Source: Paludibacteraceae bacterium
GTDB taxonomy: Bacteria > Bacteroidota > Bacteroidia > Bacteroidales > Paludibacteraceae
Assembly: GCA_017448345.1 (NCBI GenBank)
Contig: JAFSLP010000016.1
Span: 1-54,636, forward strand
Length of the DNA: 54,636 nucleotides
Reading direction: 5' to 3'
In this document: positions 10,877-33,344 of the stretch, piece by piece
How positions within the stretch are numbered: the first letter of the stretch is position 1
How the letters are laid out: the number at the start of each line of letters is the position of its first letter
The notes under the pieces: model-generated
The model's database searches: none
What the model saw: only the letters and a program-made list of their open reading frames with translations
What the model was told of the DNA's origin: nothing
Position numbers and translations under genes: made by a program

Positions 10877-12412
10877 TCAAAATTCCGACGTGAAGTGGAA
10901 CGTAATATGTTTGTAGTCCTGCTGTGCCATGGAGAGCACGTAGGCGCTGTCAGCCATGAAAACATCCCGTCCGTCTTTGTCGGTTGCCATATATTGCGCT
11001 TTGCGTTTCTTGAACATATCGAGTTCGGCATCGTCGTCGCTCTCTATCCAGCAGGCTTTGTACATCTGCAGCGGCTGCCATTTGCATTTGGCTTGGTACT
11101 CATGCTCCAAGCGGTATTGGATGACCTCGAACTGCAGTTGTCCCACGGTGCCGATGATTTTTCGTCCGTTCATCTGGTTCACGAACAACTGTGCCACACC
11201 CTCGTCCATCAGCTGCGAGACGCCTTTGTCTAGCTGTTTCTGTTTCATCGGGTCGGCGTTGTCGATATATTTGAACATTTCCGGCGAGAAGGAAGGCAGA
11301 CCTTTGAAATGCAGTTTCTCTCCGGCGGTGAGCGTGTCTCCTATCTTGAAATTGCCGGTGTCCGGCAGCCCCACAATGTCGCCGGCAAAGGCTTCATCGA
11401 CGGTCTCTTTCTTCTGCGCCATGAAACATGTCGGCGCCGCGAAACGCATCTGCTGGTCCTTGCGCACGTGATAATAATAGGTGTTGCGGAGGAACTTGCC
11501 GGAGCAAATCTTGAAGAACGCAATGCAGCTCCGGTGATTCGGGTCCATATTGGCGTGTATCTTGAAACAGAAGGCGGTGAACTTGTCCTCCATCGGCTCC
11601 ACCTTGCGTTCCTCGGCTTGTACGGGGCGTGGCGAGGGTGCGTTCCTGACGAAGAAATCCAGCAGTTCCTGCACGCCTATGGTCTTGTATGCCGAGCCGA
11701 AGAACACCGGTGCAAGGTCTCCGCGAAGGTACGCCTCGCGGTCGAAAGAGGGGTACACGCCGTCAATCATCTCCAAGTCCTCCTGCAGTTTTGCGCTCAG
11801 TTCCGAGGGGCGGTTATCCAGCGCAAAGACCGATTCGAACTTCAGTCCCTGTCCGTTAGCCCACGTCACAGGCGTGCAATGGATACCGAGTTCTTTCTCC
11901 GCCTCGTCCATCAGGTCGAACGGGTCTTTGCCCTCGCGGTCCATCTTGTTCATGAATACCATCACGGGTGTCTTGCGCATTCGGCATACCTCCATCAGCC
12001 GGCGGGTCTGTGTCTCCACACCTTTGGCGCTGTCGATGACCACAATGGCGGAATCCACGGCTGTCAGGGTACGGAACGTGTCTTCTGCGAAGTCTTGGTG
12101 CCCCGGAGTGTCGAGGATGTTGATATGATAAATGGTGTCATCCAGCTGCGTATGGCTGTCCCCGGCGACGCGCCGGTAGTCGAAACCCATGACCGATGTG
12201 GCTACAGAGATGCCGCGTTGTTTCTCTATCTCCATCCAATCAGAGGTAGCAGTCTTGCGTATCTTGTTGCTCTTGACGGCACCTGCCACATGGATAGCAC
12301 CGCCGTATAGCAGCAGTTTCTCGGTCAGCGTTGTCTTTCCCGCATCCGGGTGGGAGATAATCGCAAAGGTGCGACGCCTTAATATCTCGTTTTGGTCGCT
12401 TGTATTTAACAT
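10877..12412 (-). CDS. prfC: Peptide chain release factor 3
   Basis: A 511-residue translational GTPase that recycles RF1/RF2 after termination. The G1 motif is [14 protein letters not shown]2/G3 follow ([18 protein letters not shown]), with G4 NKMDRE. The RF3-specific insertion [19 protein letters not shown] separates it from EF-G. The C-terminal domain keeps [15 protein letters not shown]. Length is near the usual 525. The start [16 protein letters not shown] is as in relatives. Its neighbours pheT and the MFS gene are on the same strand. Confidence 0.96.
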
Positions 12413-27361: not shown

Positions 27362-28144
27362 TTATTTTGAGACGTGCTTAGTAACGAGAATACTGACTTC
27401 GTATAACAAATACAACGGAATAGTAACAAGTACTAAGGTCATTAGATCCGGAGGAGTAATGATTGCTGCCACTATCATTATAATAATAAGAGCATATTGG
27501 CGGTATTTGGCGAGTGTTTCACTTTCTATGATTCCTAATTTCGCCAAGAAATAAGCGATTACCGGCAACTGAAAAACAACTCCCATAACCAGAGTAAGCG
27601 TCACGAAAGTAGAAATATAGCTATCCAGAGTAATGGTACTATGCACTTGTTCGGCGACGGAATATGTTCCTAAGAAACGAAAGGAAACAGGGAAAAGGAT
27701 ATAGTAACTCATCAGTACACCTACAATAAAAAGCGTATAGATGGTGAGCAGAACAGGGATTGAATACTTGCGCTCATTCTCATAAAGCGCAGGAGATATG
27801 AAACGGAATAGTTCAAACAAGATATACGGCGAAGCACAAAGCAACCCAAGATAAAGCGATGTGCTGATGTGCGTCATAAACTGACTGCTAAGGTCGGTAG
27901 CGATCAAATCCACTTCAAACGGGGCAAAATGGAAATCACTTCCTAACATAGCAAGAAATTGCTCTATCCACCGATAAAGGATAAAATCACTTTGGCTTGG
28001 CGCAAGGAGCAGGTCAAAAGTGGTGTCTTTGAAGCAAAAGATTGCACAAGCAAAAACGGCTGTCACGATCAACACCCGAAACAACATCCGGCGGAGCACC
28101 TCCAGGTGTCCGCCAAATGTCAGCATTTGGTTGTCATCACTCAT
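27362..28144 (-). CDS. tatC: Twin-arginine translocase subunit TatC
   Basis: A 260-residue polytopic membrane protein (six transmembrane segments), the receptor for twin-arginine signal peptides. Start MSDDNQMLTFGGHLEVLRRML at 28144 carries the conserved HLEVLR/ELR cytoplasmic motif. The frame upstream to 28231 reads through tatA and is not used. PPDLMTLVLVTIPLYLLYEV is the usual last helix pair. It overlaps tatA by 8 bp and is the last gene of the CXXX-peptide operon. Its base composition is lower in GC than the housekeeping genes, like the rest of the operon. Confidence 0.95.
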   Translation of the reverse strand: MSDDNQMLTFGGHLEVLRRMLFRVLIVTAVFACAIFCFKDTTFDLLLAPSQSDFILYRWIEQFLAMLGSDFHFAPFEVDLIATDLSSQFMTHISTSLYLGLLCASPYILFELFRFISPALYENERKYSIPVLLTIYTLFIVGVLMSYYILFPVSFRFLGTYSVAEQVHSTITLDSYISTFVTLTLVMGVVFQLPVIAYFLAKLGIIESETLAKYRQYALIIIMIVAAIITPPDLMTLVLVTIPLYLLYEVSILVTKHVSK

Positions 28145-28379
28145 TTTTCGGCTCTTGCGGAGTTTGTTGGGGCTGTTCTTGGTCAGAAGATTCCTGTGGC
28201 TGTTCTTCACCGTTGATTTCTTCCTTAACATCTTTCATGCCTTCTTTGAACTCTTTGACACCTTTGCCGAGACCGCGCATGAGTTCCGGCAGTTTCTTGC
28301 CGCCAAAGATAAGAAGTGCAATGCCACCGATAACGATAATCTCCGTTGTACCGATGAAGAGTAATACCATGTTCAGCAT
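28137..28379 (-). CDS. tatA: Twin-arginine translocase subunit TatA/E
   Basis: 80 residues: a short N-terminal transmembrane helix (about 4-22), FGGKKLPELMRGLGKGVKEFKEGM amphipathic helix in part, and an acidic Gln-rich tail. The FGxKKLPEL hinge is the TatA signature. It forms the translocation pore with TatC. It starts 12 bp after the small CXXX accessory gene. Confidence 0.95.
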   Translation of the reverse strand: MLNMVLLFIGTTEIIVIGGIALLIFGGKKLPELMRGLGKGVKEFKEGMKDVKEEINGEEQPQESSDQEQPQQTPQEPKNE

Positions 28380-28391
28380 AATTCTTTCCTT

Positions 28392-28670
28392 TTAGTTTTC
28401 AGGTGTTACGAGGTAAATCTCACAAGTCTCGAAGTTGATTTCCCAATGTCCGTTTTCGGTTCCTTCCCATTGGTATTTCTGCGCCATAGTGTCCCACCAG
28501 TTCTGGAACTTTGAACCGGTTTCGCCTAAATCTTTAACTAACTTCTCATACAAATCCGAATTGTCGGCTGTCAGAATTTTTGCCAACTCATTCAGACCAT
28601 TACGACGCTCAAAAAGCGCTAAAATTTCATTCTTTTCTTCAGGTGTAACCTGACCTACTAATTTTTTCAT
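28392..28670 (-). CDS. CXXX repeat peptide modification system small protein
   Basis: 92 residues, soluble, no Cys motif. It opens with MKKLVGQVTPEEKNEILALFERRNGLNELAKIL and ends with a WEINFETCEIYLVTPEN strand. I match it to the small accessory protein that accompanies CXXX-repeat peptide maturases in Bacteroidales. Its role is unknown; a leader-binding or scaffold role would be a guess. It sits 5 bp after the SPASM-domain gene and 12 bp before tatA, so it is clearly one operon. Confidence 0.75.
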   Translation of the reverse strand: MKKLVGQVTPEEKNEILALFERRNGLNELAKILTADNSDLYEKLVKDLGETGSKFQNWWDTMAQKYQWEGTENGHWEINFETCEIYLVTPEN

Positions 28671-28675
28671 AATTC

Positions 28676-29620
28676 TTAGAATTGTTCCCGTACAGCGAAC
28701 GGGTCAAGGTAATCTATTTGTTTTATTTCTTCTCCAGCACTAAACCCTGCTGCTTTTAGTTGTTGCTGTAAATTACGCGCTGCATTGCGCTCCAGATGAG
28801 CTATTACACATTGCTGATGTGACGGCGTATTATTGTCCCATGTCAATTTTTGATTCTGCCAAATACAGCGGTTGCAATGGTATGCATCGCAAATACGACA
28901 GAGTGGGGCATGGTCGAGTTTGAGCAACTGAGGATTAGGAATTTGCAGGCCTGTTTCCAAATCGCCAACACTCCTTTCAGAAGAAGGCTTGTGGTGATTG
29001 AGGCGATTACTAATCCCCATTTTCTCATCATAGTAGAATGCCGGACAAAGATAGAATTTGCCATTCGGGGCAAGTGTGATATTGCTGTCACCTGCTCCGC
29101 AGTTGTGCATCTCTTTCAGTTGCAAACGGTCCGTGAGGATATTCAGTTGTGGCTGTTTGCCTGACTTGTACAGATTTAGCAATACTGCATTGAGTGTAGC
29201 AAGTGCTTTCTTATAATCCTCTGCTTGCTCATCCTTGAAAGTTTCTATATCCGTCAAACAGATATTAAGTCGCGTCACTTGTGGCAACAGGGCTGCAATA
29301 TCATACTGCTTGGCAATAAATTCAGCAATGGAAAGACGCAGTACGGCGTTTTCAGCGGTGATGACTTTGGGCACATCATTATAGACCACTACCTCGCGAC
29401 CTATCTTCACATGGTCGATGGACTCAATGACTTCGTTATATTCCTCCGGCAATTCGTATTCGGGATAGACATACTGAATCATCAGATTCTCTTTCATACC
29501 AAAGAGAATGGCCTGTTTGAGCGTATCCAACGGAATGAGGTTGCGCTCCTTGAGCGGATTCTCTGCATGGCAATATGCCACGCTGGTATCGTCCAATAAA
29601 ATAACTAAGTATTGTAACAT
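28676..29620 (-). CDS. CXXX repeat peptide maturase (SPASM-only partner)
   Basis: 314 residues. Unlike its neighbour it has no CxxxCxxC radical-SAM motif; the N-terminal half keeps a degenerate barrel-like pattern (VILLDDTSVAYCHAENP, YVYPEYELPEEY). The C-terminal half has a SPASM-like Cys set: NCGAGDSNITLAPNGKFYLC then CRICDAYHCNRC and a final Cys. This matches the family annotated as CXXX repeat peptide maturase. It probably binds auxiliary Fe-S clusters and partners the true radical SAM enzyme, by analogy with pseudo-rSAM/SPASM proteins. The gene follows the rSAM gene after a 41-bp gap occupied by a repeat. Confidence 0.75.
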   Translation of the reverse strand: MLQYLVILLDDTSVAYCHAENPLKERNLIPLDTLKQAILFGMKENLMIQYVYPEYELPEEYNEVIESIDHVKIGREVVVYNDVPKVITAENAVLRLSIAEFIAKQYDIAALLPQVTRLNICLTDIETFKDEQAEDYKKALATLNAVLLNLYKSGKQPQLNILTDRLQLKEMHNCGAGDSNITLAPNGKFYLCPAFYYDEKMGISNRLNHHKPSSERSVGDLETGLQIPNPQLLKLDHAPLCRICDAYHCNRCIWQNQKLTWDNNTPSHQQCVIAHLERNAARNLQQQLKAAGFSAGEEIKQIDYLDPFAVREQF

Positions 29621-29621
29621 G

Positions 29622-29661
29622 AGACTATTTACTATTTATTCATTTACAATTTGTTCATTTA
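29622..29661. repeat. ATTTACTATTTATTCATTT repeat beside the rSAM stop codon
   Basis: Four near-copies of TATTTACTATTTATTCATTT/ACAATTTGTTCATTT; same family as the ATGGTAAATG words. It fills the gap between the rSAM and SPASM-only genes. Confidence 0.6.
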
Positions 29662-30882
29662 TCAGCATACCACACCGTCATTTGCCTTCCTATTGGCTTC
29701 AAACTCCTCGCGCTTGCCTTCCAATTCCAGTTTGCGGTATAGTTTGTTCCAATAATAATTGTTCGCACGCACGCGCGCCTTGTGCATTTTGCAAATAGCA
29801 GTAGCACGCTCAAAAACAGTGTGGGTCTGTGCAGCATCGAAATTCTCACCTTGACACCAAGCGCATCCCTCTGCTACCTCGCAATTCACACATTCCGGTG
29901 TAGATTGTGTGCAACGGTCAAGTGTCAAAAATGGACGGAGTTTGTTTTGGTCTATTCCTTCGTATACGTTTCCGATTATCCAGGCTTCTTTGTCGCGCAA
30001 GGAATACTGCGCAAAACGAGTACACGGATAGAAATTACCTTCTGCATCTACTGCAAGCATTTTACCTGCGCCACACCAATTGTTGTTTTGAAGTTTGCAG
30101 TTCATAGGTTTTCCCATATACTCCGAGAAGAACGAGCAGGCATAATCTTTGTACAAATCTCTATCAATGATGGCATCAGCCAACTGCATTAACTGTTCTT
30201 CAAATAGCTTGTCATCTCCTTCGTGCCAAACATCTTCAAAGACGCAGTTAATATTCACTTGATGAATTCCAAGGTCGTACAAATGCAATACCGACTCGCA
30301 GATATACGGAATATCCGCAGACGAGATAGTTACTTTCGTGCCTTCCCCGGGGAATTGTTCTTGCCAAAGTGGTATATTACGCACCACATCTTTGTATGAC
30401 CCACGCTCGGAATTTTTATATACACGGTTTAGATCATGTTTGCGCTCAGTACCATCAATGGTAATACCAATGGATAGATGGTGGCGATTTTTAGTTATAA
30501 ACCGCTGCACTTTCTCGCTATCGTAATTAATGCCATTGGTAGAGAACGAGAAACGATATGAGTTGAACCAATGATGATTACGAGCAAACAGTTCTTGTTT
30601 AATGTAGTCGCATATTTTATCAATAAGGTCGATTTCCAAGAAAGGTTCTCCTCCTATGAAATCCCATATCACAGACTCATAAGCAAAGTCAGAATCATTC
30701 TCATGGTCTAATACATAGTCGATTGCCGCTTTGGCAATATTCCATGGCATTCGTTCTTTCTCGTTCTTACCTACTAAATAGCAGTATTTACAAGCCAATT
30801 GGCAATCTTTTGTAACAATAAAAGTAATGTTCTTTGACATTCCTTCTTGCCACGACTTTCCATTTTCCTTTATTTCGCTCAT
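29662..30882 (-). CDS. Radical SAM/SPASM peptide maturase, CXXX-repeat target family
   Basis: 406 residues. The 4Fe-4S motif is C27xxxC31xxC34 (TKDCQLACKYCYL), followed by GGEPF and a SIGITIDGTERKHDLNR segment. The C-terminal SPASM region has WCGAGKMLAVDAEGNFYPC and CxxC-rich CVNCEVAEGCAWCQG. It resembles the radical SAM maturase family that acts on CXXX-repeat peptides; the expected product is a thioether-type crosslink from the repeated Cys, which is inference. Its ATG overlaps the TGA of the 56-residue precursor upstream (ATGA at 30879-30882), so enzyme and peptide are translationally coupled. Confidence 0.85.
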   Translation of the reverse strand: MSEIKENGKSWQEGMSKNITFIVTKDCQLACKYCYLVGKNEKERMPWNIAKAAIDYVLDHENDSDFAYESVIWDFIGGEPFLEIDLIDKICDYIKQELFARNHHWFNSYRFSFSTNGINYDSEKVQRFITKNRHHLSIGITIDGTERKHDLNRVYKNSERGSYKDVVRNIPLWQEQFPGEGTKVTISSADIPYICESVLHLYDLGIHQVNINCVFEDVWHEGDDKLFEEQLMQLADAIIDRDLYKDYACSFFSEYMGKPMNCKLQNNNWCGAGKMLAVDAEGNFYPCTRFAQYSLRDKEAWIIGNVYEGIDQNKLRPFLTLDRCTQSTPECVNCEVAEGCAWCQGENFDAAQTHTVFERATAICKMHKARVRANNYYWNKLYRKLELEGKREEFEANRKANDGVVC

Positions 30883-31049
30883 ACTTTAGATTTTCGATGT
30901 CCCTTTGCAGGTGTTCTTACATGAGTTCCAGCATGTTTTTCGCAGCCTGTCAATAATGTAGGCAGTATGGCTGCACTTAATATCGGAAGCGTTTTTAATG
31001 CGGCTTCTTTAAAAAACTCTCTACGAGTTTGTAATTCTTCTATTATCAT
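30879..31049 (-). CDS. Tat-signal short peptide, putative fourth precursor lacking CXXX repeats
   Basis: 56 residues. The leader ELQTRREFFKEAALKTLPIL is homologous to the leaders of the other precursors and has a twin-arginine motif. LLTGCEK forms a lipobox with Cys36, the only Cys. The remaining 20 residues are basic and contain HAGTHVRTPAKGHRKSKV. So the leader is conserved but the Cys repeat is absent. It may be a degenerate precursor, a Tat lipoprotein accessory, or a peptide modified differently. Coding is supported by the leader homology and by the ATGA overlap with the rSAM gene. Confidence 0.7.
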   Translation of the reverse strand: MIIEELQTRREFFKEAALKTLPILSAAILPTLLTGCEKHAGTHVRTPAKGHRKSKV

Positions 31050-31117
31050 TACAAATTTGATTCAATAAAAAGTGCTACACTCCTCTTTTTTTCAAAATAG
31101 GAATGCAGCACAACAAA

Positions 31118-31360
31118 TTACCTCTTGGAACTACCGGAGCAACTGCCCGAACAAGTGCTCTTGCAACCATAGTGGCAAGAACCATAACAATCATTTTGGC
31201 AACTGGTCTTACAAGTGTAGTCACAGCCTGTGCTTGCAACCGCATTCACAGCTGGTACATTTGCCAATACAACCGCCCCAATGATAGGCAGTGCTACTTT
31301 GGCTGCACTTTTAAAGAACTCACGACGTGACTGGAGTTCCTCGTTTTGGTTGGTTTTCAT
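31118..31360 (-). CDS. CXXX-repeat RiPP precursor (80 residues)
   Basis: The leader ELQSRREFFKSAAKVALPII has a Tat motif, with a hydrophobic stretch and likely cleavage near NAVAS. The core has eight cysteines at exactly four-residue spacing: 46, 50, 54, 58, 62, 66, 70 and 74 (CDYTCKTSCQNDCYGSCHYG and on to CSGSC). It is the cleanest precursor of the operon. A 42-bp element shared with the barrel gene lies 16 bp upstream of its start codon. Confidence 0.9.
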   Translation of the reverse strand: MKTNQNEELQSRREFFKSAAKVALPIIGAVVLANVPAVNAVASTGCDYTCKTSCQNDCYGSCHYGCKSTCSGSCSGSSKR

Positions 31361-31376
31361 TGTTATAACAATTATT

Positions 31377-31418
31377 AGTTTTCCCTACATCCTTTCCGTC
31401 GGCGATTCGGGTTTCTCC
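31377..31418 (-). promoter_or_regulatory. 42-bp shared leader element, copy 2
   Basis: Matches 32595-32636 at 37 of 42 positions, and both lie exactly 16 bp upstream of a start codon. On the mRNA it begins GGAGAAACCCGAA and ends GTAGGGAAAACT. There is no -7 element in it, so it is more likely an RNA-level control or binding site than a promoter. Confidence 0.65.
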
Positions 31419-31425
31419 TTTTATA

Positions 31426-31670
31426 TTACAATGCACCGTATGCTCCACCCTTACAACCCATTTTACATCCGGTATTGCACGCAGTACGGCAAGAGCCTGT
31501 ACATCCAGTGTAACATGAGTCACTACATGTGTTGCAACCTGTTGCGGTAGCATTCGCTGTAATAGGTATTTGCGAAAGGACAACAGTTCCTATCACAGGC
31601 AAAGTCGCCTTAACTGCTTTTTAAAGAACTCTCTTCTAGAGTGTAATTCATTATTTTGTTTCATTTTCAT
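31426..31670 (-). pseudogene. CXXX-repeat RiPP precursor with a one-base deletion in an A-run
   Basis: The leader reads MKMKQNNELHSRREFFK in frame, then a run of five A (T5 on the plus strand at 31618-31622) shifts the frame and a stop follows after eight codons. With one added A the frame gives 81 residues: a Tat leader like its neighbours, then GCNTCSDSCYTGCTGSCRTA and CNTGCKMGC, with Cys at 46, 49, 53, 57, 61, 65, 69 and 73, and a stop at 31426. No other lesion is present. It is a recent loss, a sequencing error, or a frame restored by slippage on the TTT-AAA-AAG site. Confidence 0.8.
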
Positions 31671-31696
31671 TATTTATTTAGTTAATACAGAAGTTT

Positions 31697-32029
31697 TTAT
31701 CTGCTAGCATTAGCATAACACGTACCACGGCATGAGCTTTGGCATGCATTTTTACAAGAAGTCAATGAACATCCTGATGGATGATAATATGAGTTACTTT
31801 TACATTGTGTGCGACAGTTTGCAGTACAATCAGAAGAACAAGTCTGTTGACAGGTATTTTTACATACTCCTCCGCAAGAAGTCGTACCTCCTGGAACATC
31901 GGGAACTTCTATCTCACAAGAAGTGAATACATTAGGTATAGTAAAAGCAGCAACACTCAATGCTGTTCCAGCTGCTTTCTTAAAAAATGAACGGCGAGAT
32001 AAAATCTCTTTCTGTATGTTATTTTCCAT
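31697..32029 (-). CDS. CXXX-repeat RiPP precursor (110 residues)
   Basis: The leader EILSRRSFFKKAAGTALSVA has a Tat motif, and VFTSCE gives a lipobox-like Cys38. The core has seven cysteines at four-residue spacing (52 to 76), a Tyr/Pro-containing spacer, then Cys87 and four more at 92, 96, 100 and 104. It is longer than the other precursors and has two repeat blocks. It starts 12 bp after the barrel gene, so the two share an mRNA. Confidence 0.88.
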   Translation of the reverse strand: MENNIQKEILSRRSFFKKAAGTALSVAAFTIPNVFTSCEIEVPDVPGGTTSCGGVCKNTCQQTCSSDCTANCRTQCKSNSYYHPSGCSLTSCKNACQSSCRGTCYANASR

Positions 32030-32041
32030 ATCATTTTGAAT

Positions 32042-32578
32042 TTAATAGTTATTAAAGCAAATACCAATTTTTGTAAAGAAAGTCGTTGATCCGTTTCCTG
32101 TCCCATTATTGTGTAAACCGAAACTCCAATCGAGCAACTTATACTGTAAACCAGTACCAAATTGACAGAAGAACTGCGCATTTTTTGTATCCATATGCAG
32201 AACACCATGACCAGCTCCTAACCCTAAATCGACATAAAGGCGAAAATTATCATTTATAGGGTAATAACCGCGTAAATCCACAAACTCATTCATGTACATG
32301 CGAAGCCCTGATATAGAGGCGTATATCCCTCTGTTCGGGTAATAGTGAGTCATAAAATTAACATCTACTCCTAAACCGACTTGCATCCATTTTCCAAGTT
32401 TAACACCCTGAATCGTACCAACACTTCCCCTCTGTTGGTAAGTATCCATCCCATTAGTAATGGATGTGGAACCATACCCGAGATGCATATCACCAACATA
32501 CTTAGGTGAGAAATCAACTTGGGCAAAACAACTCCAAATTGGCAAAAAAGCCATTAAAAAACATAACGTTTTTCTCAT
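32042..32578 (-). CDS. Small outer-membrane beta-barrel protein of the RiPP operon
   Basis: 178 residues with a signal peptide (about 1-20, ending FAQ). The mature part alternates short amphipathic strands with turns (LGYGSTSITNGMD, GVKLGKWMQVGLGVDVNF, LYVDLGLGAGHG, FQFGTGLQYKLLDWSFGL-like) and ends in F-N-N-Y. Pattern and length suit an 8-stranded outer-membrane barrel. It is the first gene of the operon, so it may help release, anchor or act as receptor for the peptides; that is inference. No family name is certain. Confidence 0.6.
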   Translation of the reverse strand: MRKTLCFLMAFLPIWSCFAQVDFSPKYVGDMHLGYGSTSITNGMDTYQQRGSVGTIQGVKLGKWMQVGLGVDVNFMTHYYPNRGIYASISGLRMYMNEFVDLRGYYPINDNFRLYVDLGLGAGHGVLHMDTKNAQFFCQFGTGLQYKLLDWSFGLHNNGTGNGSTTFFTKIGICFNNY

Positions 32579-32594
32579 AGTATTTATTTTATCA

Positions 32595-32636
32595 AGTTTT
32601 CCCTACTCCCTTTACGTTGGCGGTTCGGGTTTCTCC
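32595..32636 (-). promoter_or_regulatory. 42-bp shared leader element, copy 1
   Basis: See 31377-31418. It lies 16 bp upstream of the barrel start codon and downstream of the leader RNA terminator, so it is present only on read-through mRNA. Confidence 0.65.
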
Positions 32637-32693
32637 TATTTCTCTGTAAATTTCGGCTTACTCCGGTTAATATAATCAAGTATATATACACAA

Positions 32694-32990
32694 CAAAAAA
32701 GCGGGACTGCACTATTGCTGTTCCGCGATTCGAGGCTCTGGTATTGCCTTTTGTTCCAAACAACAACACTGAAGCCCACGCTGTATGCATCTATACGTAC
32801 GCATATGCGTACCTTATTATACATACCACAGGGCACCTTGTGCTGCAATGTTTTGGAACAGTGAATTTACCAGATTCCGAATCGCCAAAACAAAGCGCTT
32901 AAGACGCCTTTTTCAATATGTCCTGTATCTCACCCGCCCGAAAGACATATACCCTCAGCGTGGGCTCAATACGGCAAAACTTCCGTTTTG
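32694..32990 (-). ncRNA. Structured leader RNA of the CXXX operon
   Basis: About 300 nt between the promoter at 32996 and a terminator-like hairpin (GCGGGAC/GTTCCGC at 32701-32707 and 32720-32726, A6 on the plus strand giving U6). It is closed by an 11-bp perfect helix (32773-32783 with 32956-32966). Inside it lie hairpins TGTTTTGG/CCAAAACA (32849-32856 with 32885-32892) and ATATGTC/GACATAT (32916-32922 with 32944-32950), plus the 16-bp palindrome GTACGCATATGCGTAC (32797-32812). A hairpin GCAAAAC/GTTTTGC overlaps the start. No coding frame looks real. It could be an attenuating leader or riboswitch, or a free small RNA. No known class recognised. Confidence 0.6.
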
Positions 32991-32995
32991 CGCTG

Positions 32996-33027
32996 CAAAA
33001 ATACTACTTTTTTTTGATATATGCAAG
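32996..33027 (-). promoter_or_regulatory. Promoter of the CXXX RiPP operon
   Basis: CTTGCATATATC, A8, GTAG, TATTTTTG (32996-33003) on the minus strand; spacing 23. It is the only consensus promoter upstream of the nine-gene run down to tatC. Confidence 0.8.
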
Positions 33028-33068
33028 AGTAAACCGTATTTTTTTCGATTTTTTCTCATAAGTAGGCA

Positions 33069-33095
33069 TAAAAAAACGGACCGAAGTCCGTCTTT
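33069..33095 (-). terminator. Terminator of the DUF3990 cassette
   Basis: ACGGAC (33076-33081), CGAA, GTCCGT (33086-33091); as minus-strand RNA the loop is UUCG, followed by U7. Confidence 0.88.
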
Positions 33096-33140
33096 TATTC
33101 AATATGTTTTCCTGTCAAACGTTAGCGGGTGGCGGTAGTA

Positions 33141-33344
33141 TCATATCGTCTGATACAAAGACACCGGTCCTTCATGCCAGCGTTTGGTACTTTCCTGTTC
33201 CAATTGTTTATACATCGCAGAGGAATACACGCGGCGGATAGCTTCAATCGTACTGATATGCTCGTCCTCAGCCAACATGTCTGCCACCCAACTTACTTTG
33301 AACGGCAGAAGCAGATACAGATTTTGTTGTGTTATCTCGCTCAT
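33141..33344 (-). CDS. Small DUF3791-like protein of the DUF3990 cassette
   Basis: 67 residues: MSEITQQNLYLLLPFKVSWVADMLAEDEH and a helical rest ending GPVSLYQTI. Start at 33344 is set by the ATGA overlap with the DUF3990 stop codon; the longer frame to 33491 lies inside that gene. By size, position and helical pattern it is probably an antitoxin-side protein. The DUF3791 resemblance is weak. Confidence 0.6.
   Translation of the reverse strand: MSEITQQNLYLLLPFKVSWVADMLAEDEHISTIEAIRRVYSSAMYKQLEQESTKRWHEGPVSLYQTI

Follow-up and report, generated by a model that had tools for sequence, protein, structure and literature searches.

In a 54,636-nucleotide (nt) stretch of DNA from a Paludibacteraceae bacterium (GCA_017448345.1, contig JAFSLP010000016.1), hereafter the window, we identified an operon for cysteine-repeat (CXXX) peptides that carries its own genes for a twin-arginine translocation (Tat) exporter. 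The operon lies on the minus strand and runs from 32782 to 27362, within the section from 27362 to 33027. We consider it likely that the cysteine-repeat peptides are made and then exported by this dedicated Tat system, with one leader being read twice along the way. The CXXX maturase family itself is already known from NCBIfam; judging from the papers searched, the dedicated Tat linkage appears to be the new part.

The gene order along the minus strand, as given by open reading frames (ORFs) and family searches, is leader RNA, β-barrel protein, four peptide ORFs (P1 to P4), radical S-adenosylmethionine (SAM) enzyme, partner protein, accessory protein, TatA and TatC. The radical SAM/SPASM peptide maturase (29662..30882), which contains the motif CQLACKYC, scores 628.6 bits against TIGR04115 (cut-off 350). 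Its partner, a CXXX repeat peptide maturase (28676..29620), scores 215.1 bits against TIGR04119 (cut-off 150), and the CXXX modification system accessory protein (28392..28670) scores 102.2 bits against TIGR04116 (cut-off 50). TatA (28137..28379) matches TIGR01411 with 66 bits (cut-off 53.9) and PF02416 (TatA_B_E) with 63.9 bits, and TatC (27362..28231) matches TIGR00945 with 170 bits (cut-off 132.7) and the Pfam TatC family with 215.3 bits, such that both components of a minimal TatAC translocase stand above their family cut-offs. The tatC gene most likely starts at 28144, with an 8-nt overlap with the tatA stop. The gene series read in the first-pass annotation, from barrel and peptides through radical SAM enzyme, partner and accessory to tatA and tatC, is confirmed by these coordinates and by the family matches above cut-off. 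The operon is the NCBIfam CXXX-repeat peptide system (TIGR04115, TIGR04119, TIGR04116 and TIGR04117) plus tatA and tatC. It shares with that system the three maturase proteins and P3, all above cut-off, and differs from it in having the tat genes, here and in most relatives, whereas the one-line descriptions of the family models name no Tat.

We compared this arrangement across 91 base loci, comprising the best 80 of 177 relatives, the window and ten loci from draws across the order and the phylum; 76 of them retain at least 4 kb of sequence after the enzyme gene. Same-strand tatA and tatC are present in 57 of the 76 (window included), tatA only in three and neither gene in 16. The median gaps in the 57 full-set loci are 4, 6, 6 and −22 nt, so tight that chance placement of the tat genes is not plausible. 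The draws, which were not made by likeness, yielded 11 CXXX genomes: seven of 295 in the order, with the window genome counted, and another four came from 392 genomes of the phylum. Five of these, the window genome included, are Tat-linked (G000, G618, G524, G639 and G508), three are linked to an ABC exporter (G506, G129 and G040) and three to neither (G724, G039 and G259). In the enzyme tree, which is midpoint-rooted and has modest support, a crown group is mostly Tat-linked and the deeper branches vary. The three tatA-only loci (L027, L073 and L082) have neither a tatC nor a remnant of one within 1.5 kb after tatA, and the sole TatC of each of these genomes lies elsewhere in the genome. One locus labelled Clostridia (L060) carries a Bacteroidales-like CXXX/Tat operon and is probably a binning error.

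P1 (31697..32029; 110 residues) and P3 (31118..31360; 80 residues) are both intact, each being a CXXX peptide whose Tat-type leader reads S-RR-x-FFK; P1 has a lipobox-like Cys followed by acidic residues, and P3 has no lipobox. In P2 (31426..31670), the twin-arginine (RR) leader lies in an ORF from 31670 to 31593 and the Cys core in another frame, in an ORF from 31602 to 31426, with stops inside the match, indicating either a broken gene or a misassembly in the draft genome. P4 (30879..31049) has a leader that includes RRxFFK, as in P1 and P3, and a lipobox without a CXXX core. A pattern search found no counterpart of P4 among the 80 relatives; in two near-duplicate loci (L075 and L077), the last peptide is a different one that has an RR leader and almost no CXXX, and P4 itself is probably a decayed precursor. 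The earlier count of four peptides with Tat-type leaders was thus too high, since the frame is broken in one and another is coreless, which leaves two intact CXXX peptides. Of these sequences, only P3 reaches the TIGR04117 cut-off of 50, with 50.2 bits; the P2 core (20.5) and P1 (10) fall below it, P1 far below.

The broken P2 and the coreless P4 are what one would expect if the operon were decaying in the window genome, with the tat genes as leftovers. We regard this as extremely improbable, given that P1, P3 and the five maturase and Tat genes are all open, those five being 90–98% identical to their counterparts in L006, and that we are dealing with a draft assembly, in 120 contigs and with 80.6% completeness.

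RR leaders are the rule beyond the window, being present in 160 of the 171 CXXX ORFs near a maturase (107 loci, duplicates included). Four of the 11 exceptions are cut at the locus end (L019, L026, L072 and L177), one is the broken P2 and three are apparently spurious (one in L012, two in L066); a further ORF in L066 has a displaced RR and one in L048 has no RR, leaving a genuine non-Tat precursor in L222. The 140 distinct leaders have in common E-L-Q-S-R-R-E-F-F-K-K-A-A-K, after which 91% have L at +12 and 94% have P at +13; the precursor leader consensus is ELQSRREFFKKAAKKALPILGAV. The RRxFFK element suits Tat recognition. To our knowledge, the Tat motif has no fixed LP within its hydrophobic part, and the LP conserved here may serve the maturase instead.

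The strongest argument for a Tat export route is an exporter swap. Clear non-Tat precursors are found only in L222, L225 and L226, and each of these three operons carries an MsbA-like ABC exporter (PF00664, PF00005). No same-strand exporter of this kind lies within 6 kb in any of the 85 RR-leader loci among the 91 base loci, some of which are cut; the base loci without RR also include L019, L026 and L072, each of them cut at the locus end. The corresponding Fisher test gives p = 6e-6, a value that was computed with 97 RR loci where the table, drawn from 107 loci with overlaps and duplicates, has 96. The L225 and L226 precursors, too poor in CxxxC for the automatic filter and identified separately, retain K-T-L-P and have lost both the RR pair and the hydrophobic run. 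By shuffling, the kinship of their leaders is no more than suggestive, with 1 and 8 of 2000 shuffles, respectively, reaching the score. Because the non-Tat operons carry an ABC exporter, comparable to that of the Qhp system discussed below, Tat appears to fill the place that the ABC exporter takes in the other branch. An explanation of the non-Tat leaders by the absence of any Tat system from the genome proved false, as G129 and G040 have TatC. Beside the ABC exporter of L222 lies a QhpE-like subtilisin (L222:7381-8088; 111 bits, cut-off 165), which points to a Qhp-like route with a different peptide family.

The linked TatC is in many genomes an additional one. The window genome has a second TatC on contig C89, distant from the operon, that adjoins an aldo-keto-reductase-like protein (a name read from its sequence) which itself carries an RR leader. 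The mere presence of TatC says little, because 243 of the 295 genomes of the order sample have one; two TatCs occur in 4 of the 7 CXXX genomes of that sample versus 10 of the 288 others (counted by eye; p = 1e-4). We searched the genomes of 78 relatives (43 + 35; contigs of at least 3 kb, many from drafts) and found TatC in 77. A linked and an unlinked copy occur together in 46 genomes, a linked copy only in 18 and no linked copy in at most 14, with the ambiguous G439 counted as one linked plus one unlinked. Xylanibacter rarus (G408, locus L048), a named isolate, carries tat genes both inside and outside the operon.

Most linked copies also form a group of their own. In a tree of 145 TatC sequences (72 linked and 73 other, of which L154, from G437, may be a linked copy cut off by a contig end, its locus L008 being cut too; L084 is also cut), 56 linked TatCs form one clade with an SH-aLRT support of 100. 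Going by their labels, its members come from Paludibacteraceae, Prevotellaceae, Bacteroidaceae, Muribaculaceae, Rikenellaceae and Porphyromonadaceae, plus one sequence labelled Clostridia that is probably misbinned. The 16 linked TatCs outside it comprise 11 from Paludibacteraceae and allies, the set of L026, L190 and L213, and the single copies of L219 and L221. Five changes of linkage are required by the tree, three of them forced by well-supported branches, which suggests further separate tat linkages beyond the 56-member clade.

Members of the clade, among them the window TatC with its FGGHLE and Q221 signature, have G at residue 40 in 98% (W in 80% of the others), G at residue 41 in 91% (D in 52% and E in 36% of the others) and Q at residue 221 in 96% (E in 89% of the others), all in window numbering; M at 49 and T at 71 are among the other distinguishing sites. 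We take twin-arginine motifs to be contacted by the N-terminal HLxE region of TatC, and TatA/TatB presumably lie near its glutamate in transmembrane helix 5. If these contacts hold, the G40/G41 and Q221 changes fall at sites of substrate or partner recognition. An HLxE-to-V change was rejected as specific to the clade, V being present in 38% of the other TatCs.

Several findings weigh against a dedicated exporter, and some of them favor another account, in which the operon houses tatA and tatC as a matter of convenience and these encode the general Tat system, used by the peptides just as carriers without linked genes would use a distant one. RR leaders are kept in 12 of the 16 tat-less loci, including that of Bacteroides congonensis, all with at least 4 kb downstream; together with the three tatA-only loci, they make the linkage common yet not required. 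The linked TatC is the sole one found in 18 of the 64 genomes that have a linked copy, and may also serve there as the general Tat, because no other was found. The 11 linked TatCs from Paludibacteraceae and allies group with general TatCs. Moreover, the relatives were picked by likeness to the window enzyme and include near-duplicates such as L075 and L077, and the Tat-signal hidden Markov model TIGR01409 gives P1 15.0 bits, against a cut-off of 16.7, and no match to P3. We had expected tight co-evolution of the radical SAM enzyme with TatC, which the distances contradict: the correlation of the enzyme with the linked TatC is weak (rho of 0.24 at n = 65, and 0.03 when limited to the 30 genomes that have another TatC), compared with 0.54 for the enzyme and its partner, 0.33 for the enzyme and the unlinked TatC in those 30 genomes and 0.57 for the linked and unlinked TatCs. 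Given this weak correlation, the enzyme and TatC do not form one tight evolving unit, and TatC has instead been replaced or has followed the host, as is also evident from the presence of two TatC lineages among the operons of Paludibacteraceae.

Against the convenience account stand the other TatC in 46 genomes and in the window genome, the 56-member clade with its own signature residues and the five linkage changes in the tree, three on well-supported branches; we judge that account unlikely. The linkage, the extra TatC, the TatC clade and the exporter swap all support the core of the first-pass reading, an operon equipped with a Tat exporter of its own. Nor are these genes the sole tat locus, placed here by chance in one genome only, since a distant second tatC is present and the linkage recurs in many loci.

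We propose that export by a dedicated Tat would proceed as follows. The leader would first be bound by the maturase complex of radical SAM enzyme, pseudo-radical-SAM partner and accessory protein, which would modify the CXXX array while it is still in the cytosol, a reducing compartment. The TatA/TatC of the operon would next read this leader as a twin-arginine signal and take the core, by then finished and folded or crosslinked, through the inner membrane. A periplasmic peptide of the P3 type would then be released by signal peptidase I, and signal peptidase II would yield a lipoprotein of the P1 type with an acidic tail after the Cys, which may move on to the cell surface or outer membrane in the vicinity of the barrel. 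The parts of this scheme differ in strength. Export by Tat is well supported by the comparison of loci; modification before export and the double reading of the leader are steps that we infer, as are the chemistry and the purpose of the product. A more specific and tentative version, to which we give somewhat less than an even chance, is a Tat-proofread pathway for ribosomally synthesized and post-translationally modified peptides (RiPPs), in which the specialised TatC (FGG/Q) would let only finished Cys arrays leave and Tat and ABC cassettes would swap with the leader type.

The order of events could also be different, in that Tat exports an unmodified precursor, folded or loaded with metal, with the radical SAM complex acting on another target, or in that the leader is mainly a membrane anchor. 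A leader and Tat genes alone do not fix the order, and a Cys-rich core could bind metal without any modification. Maturases and candidate precursors are, however, adjacent in 101 of 107 loci (one filter), and radical SAM enzymes work in the cytosol. The non-Tat members likewise keep their maturases along with the ABC exporter, as does Qhp, where modification precedes export (excerpted text of PMC7876137). We consider either variant very unlikely.

Modification in the cytosol followed by export to the periplasm has a precedent in the Qhp system (QhpD, QhpE and QhpF), which matures the gamma subunit of quinohemoprotein amine dehydrogenase. According to the same excerpt, QhpE cleaves a peptide that a radical SAM enzyme has crosslinked, and the ABC transporter QhpF then exports it (PMC7876137); L222 likewise has an ABC exporter and a QhpE-like protease. 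Qhp thus relies on an ABC exporter and a suicide protease, whereas the window has Tat and presumed signal peptidases; family searches found neither a QhpE protease nor an ABC exporter among the ten window proteins scanned. The nearest other named maturase is the ranthipeptide maturase PapB (NF047865), against which the window enzyme scores 201.2 bits, below the cut-off of 340. PapB joins Cys to Asp or Glu, as described in an excerpt of PMC9413430. Across 2718 CxxxC units, the prevailing pattern is C-[STK]-[GSNT]-[SGT], with Asp at about 4% and Glu at no more than 2% of each X position, and this rarity makes PapB-type chemistry unlikely here.

Signal peptides on modified peptides have been described in other families. 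The Sec-exported MNIO RiPPs, including the bufferins, have Cys-rich precursors in which N-terminal signal peptides replace the ordinary leaders, some of them being lipoproteins (PMC12452194, in excerpt); they pair Sec with MNIO chemistry, where the window operon pairs Tat with radical SAM chemistry. The same excerpt calls Sec signal peptides on RiPPs rare and holds that a guard against premature export must exist, on which it only speculates; "Tat" and "twin-arginine" occur zero times in the PMC12452194 text. RiPP-lipoprotein hybrids such as DybA have, in the excerpt of PMC12636315, a lipobox after the signal peptide of a modified peptide, similar to the lipobox precursors here, and differ from the window system in their C-terminal MNIO chemistry; that text also has zero occurrences of Tat. 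An engineering paper has speculated that Tat could help with lanthipeptides, and its excerpt reports that preliminary attempts were unsuccessful (PMC5686179). Term searches found neither CXXX nor Tat in a survey of Bacteroidales RiPPs (PMC10352776), and zero occurrences of Tat or twin-arginine in that paper, PMC10885120 and PMC8939145. Among the matches listed from the open-licence literature, no study concerned export in the CXXX system or a natural Tat-dependent RiPP.

The partner protein had first been read as SPASM-only, which is wrong in detail. The radical SAM motif CX3CX2C occurs in the first 160 residues of none of 86 partner ORFs (0/86), and seven invariant Cys residues lie inside the stretch of a weak SPASM match. 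An AlphaFold2 model of the partner (mean pLDDT of 73.5) has 5wgg and 5why as its best Foldseek matches, with a TM-score of 0.44 by query length for 5why. The partner thus looks like a full radical-SAM/SPASM fold that lacks CX3CX2C and retains SPASM-like cysteines. Natural fusions join the radical SAM enzyme to the partner in L222 (8101-10266) and the partner to the accessory protein in L223 (6436-7968) and L224 (6726-8258).

The first protein of the operon (32042..32578, minus strand, as are all features here; 178 residues) is an outer-membrane β-barrel-like protein with 28.4 bits against PF13505, just below the cut-off of 28.7. The barrel gene is present in 5 of 81 loci (the window, L054, L058, L064 and L065), and exactly those five have a lipoprotein-type precursor with SCEI[DE]; barrel and precursor form a sub-module. 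Among 145 distinct RR precursors, a simple pattern picks out 34 in which a lipobox-like Cys stands 20–40 residues after the RR (about three are doubtful), in many cases followed by acidic residues. Such peptides may be lipidated and displayed at the surface.

Upstream of the barrel gene lies a structured 5′ leader RNA (32692..32782) with three stems, a covarying pseudoknot and an intrinsic terminator at its end. It scores 57.3 bits (E = 9.6e-10) against our R1 model, which was built from 19 copies with the window copy among them. We counted 36 covarying double changes (cells), compared with 9.6 after shuffling and 4–8 when the alignment was slid. No Rfam match to the leader RNA was found at E ≤ 1 (window positions 30800-33150 and four relatives; five Rfam matches lie elsewhere). 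The window genome has at least 18 matches at E ≤ 1, the weakest at 0.08 (150 candidates scored), and for this reason we rejected a leader RNA specific to CXXX operons in favor of a genome-wide element. Each of 12 other genomes has at least 2–11 matches at E ≤ 0.001 (150 candidates per genome), and 56 of 98 sources, 19 of which built the model, have a match at this threshold. The element is about 90–100 nt long and often stands ahead of genes read as secreted, surface or polysaccharide genes; it may be a new regulatory RNA, and in the Bacteroidales tested it occurs throughout the genome. In L217, a SAM-II riboswitch match (11088-11147, plus strand; 52.8 bits against a gathering threshold of 44) and the CXXX leader RNA are about 460 nt apart and on opposite strands.

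Two copies of a 46-nt repeat, 87% identical to each other, are located upstream of the barrel gene (32595..32640) and upstream of P3 (31377..31422). The 22-nt core of the repeat has no other site in the window genome with up to three mismatches, and a similar string stands ahead of a precursor in L016.

Leaders of the signal type pose a problem of timing, as export must not precede modification. Many Bacteroidales of the rumen and gut seem to have solved this problem by means of a dedicated Tat, and a private Tat copy would explain why CXXX peptides stay inside until they are finished. The ABC-type operons offer a matched natural control, which makes the idea directly testable. Our results also suggest that TatC can apparently be tuned to one class of substrate.

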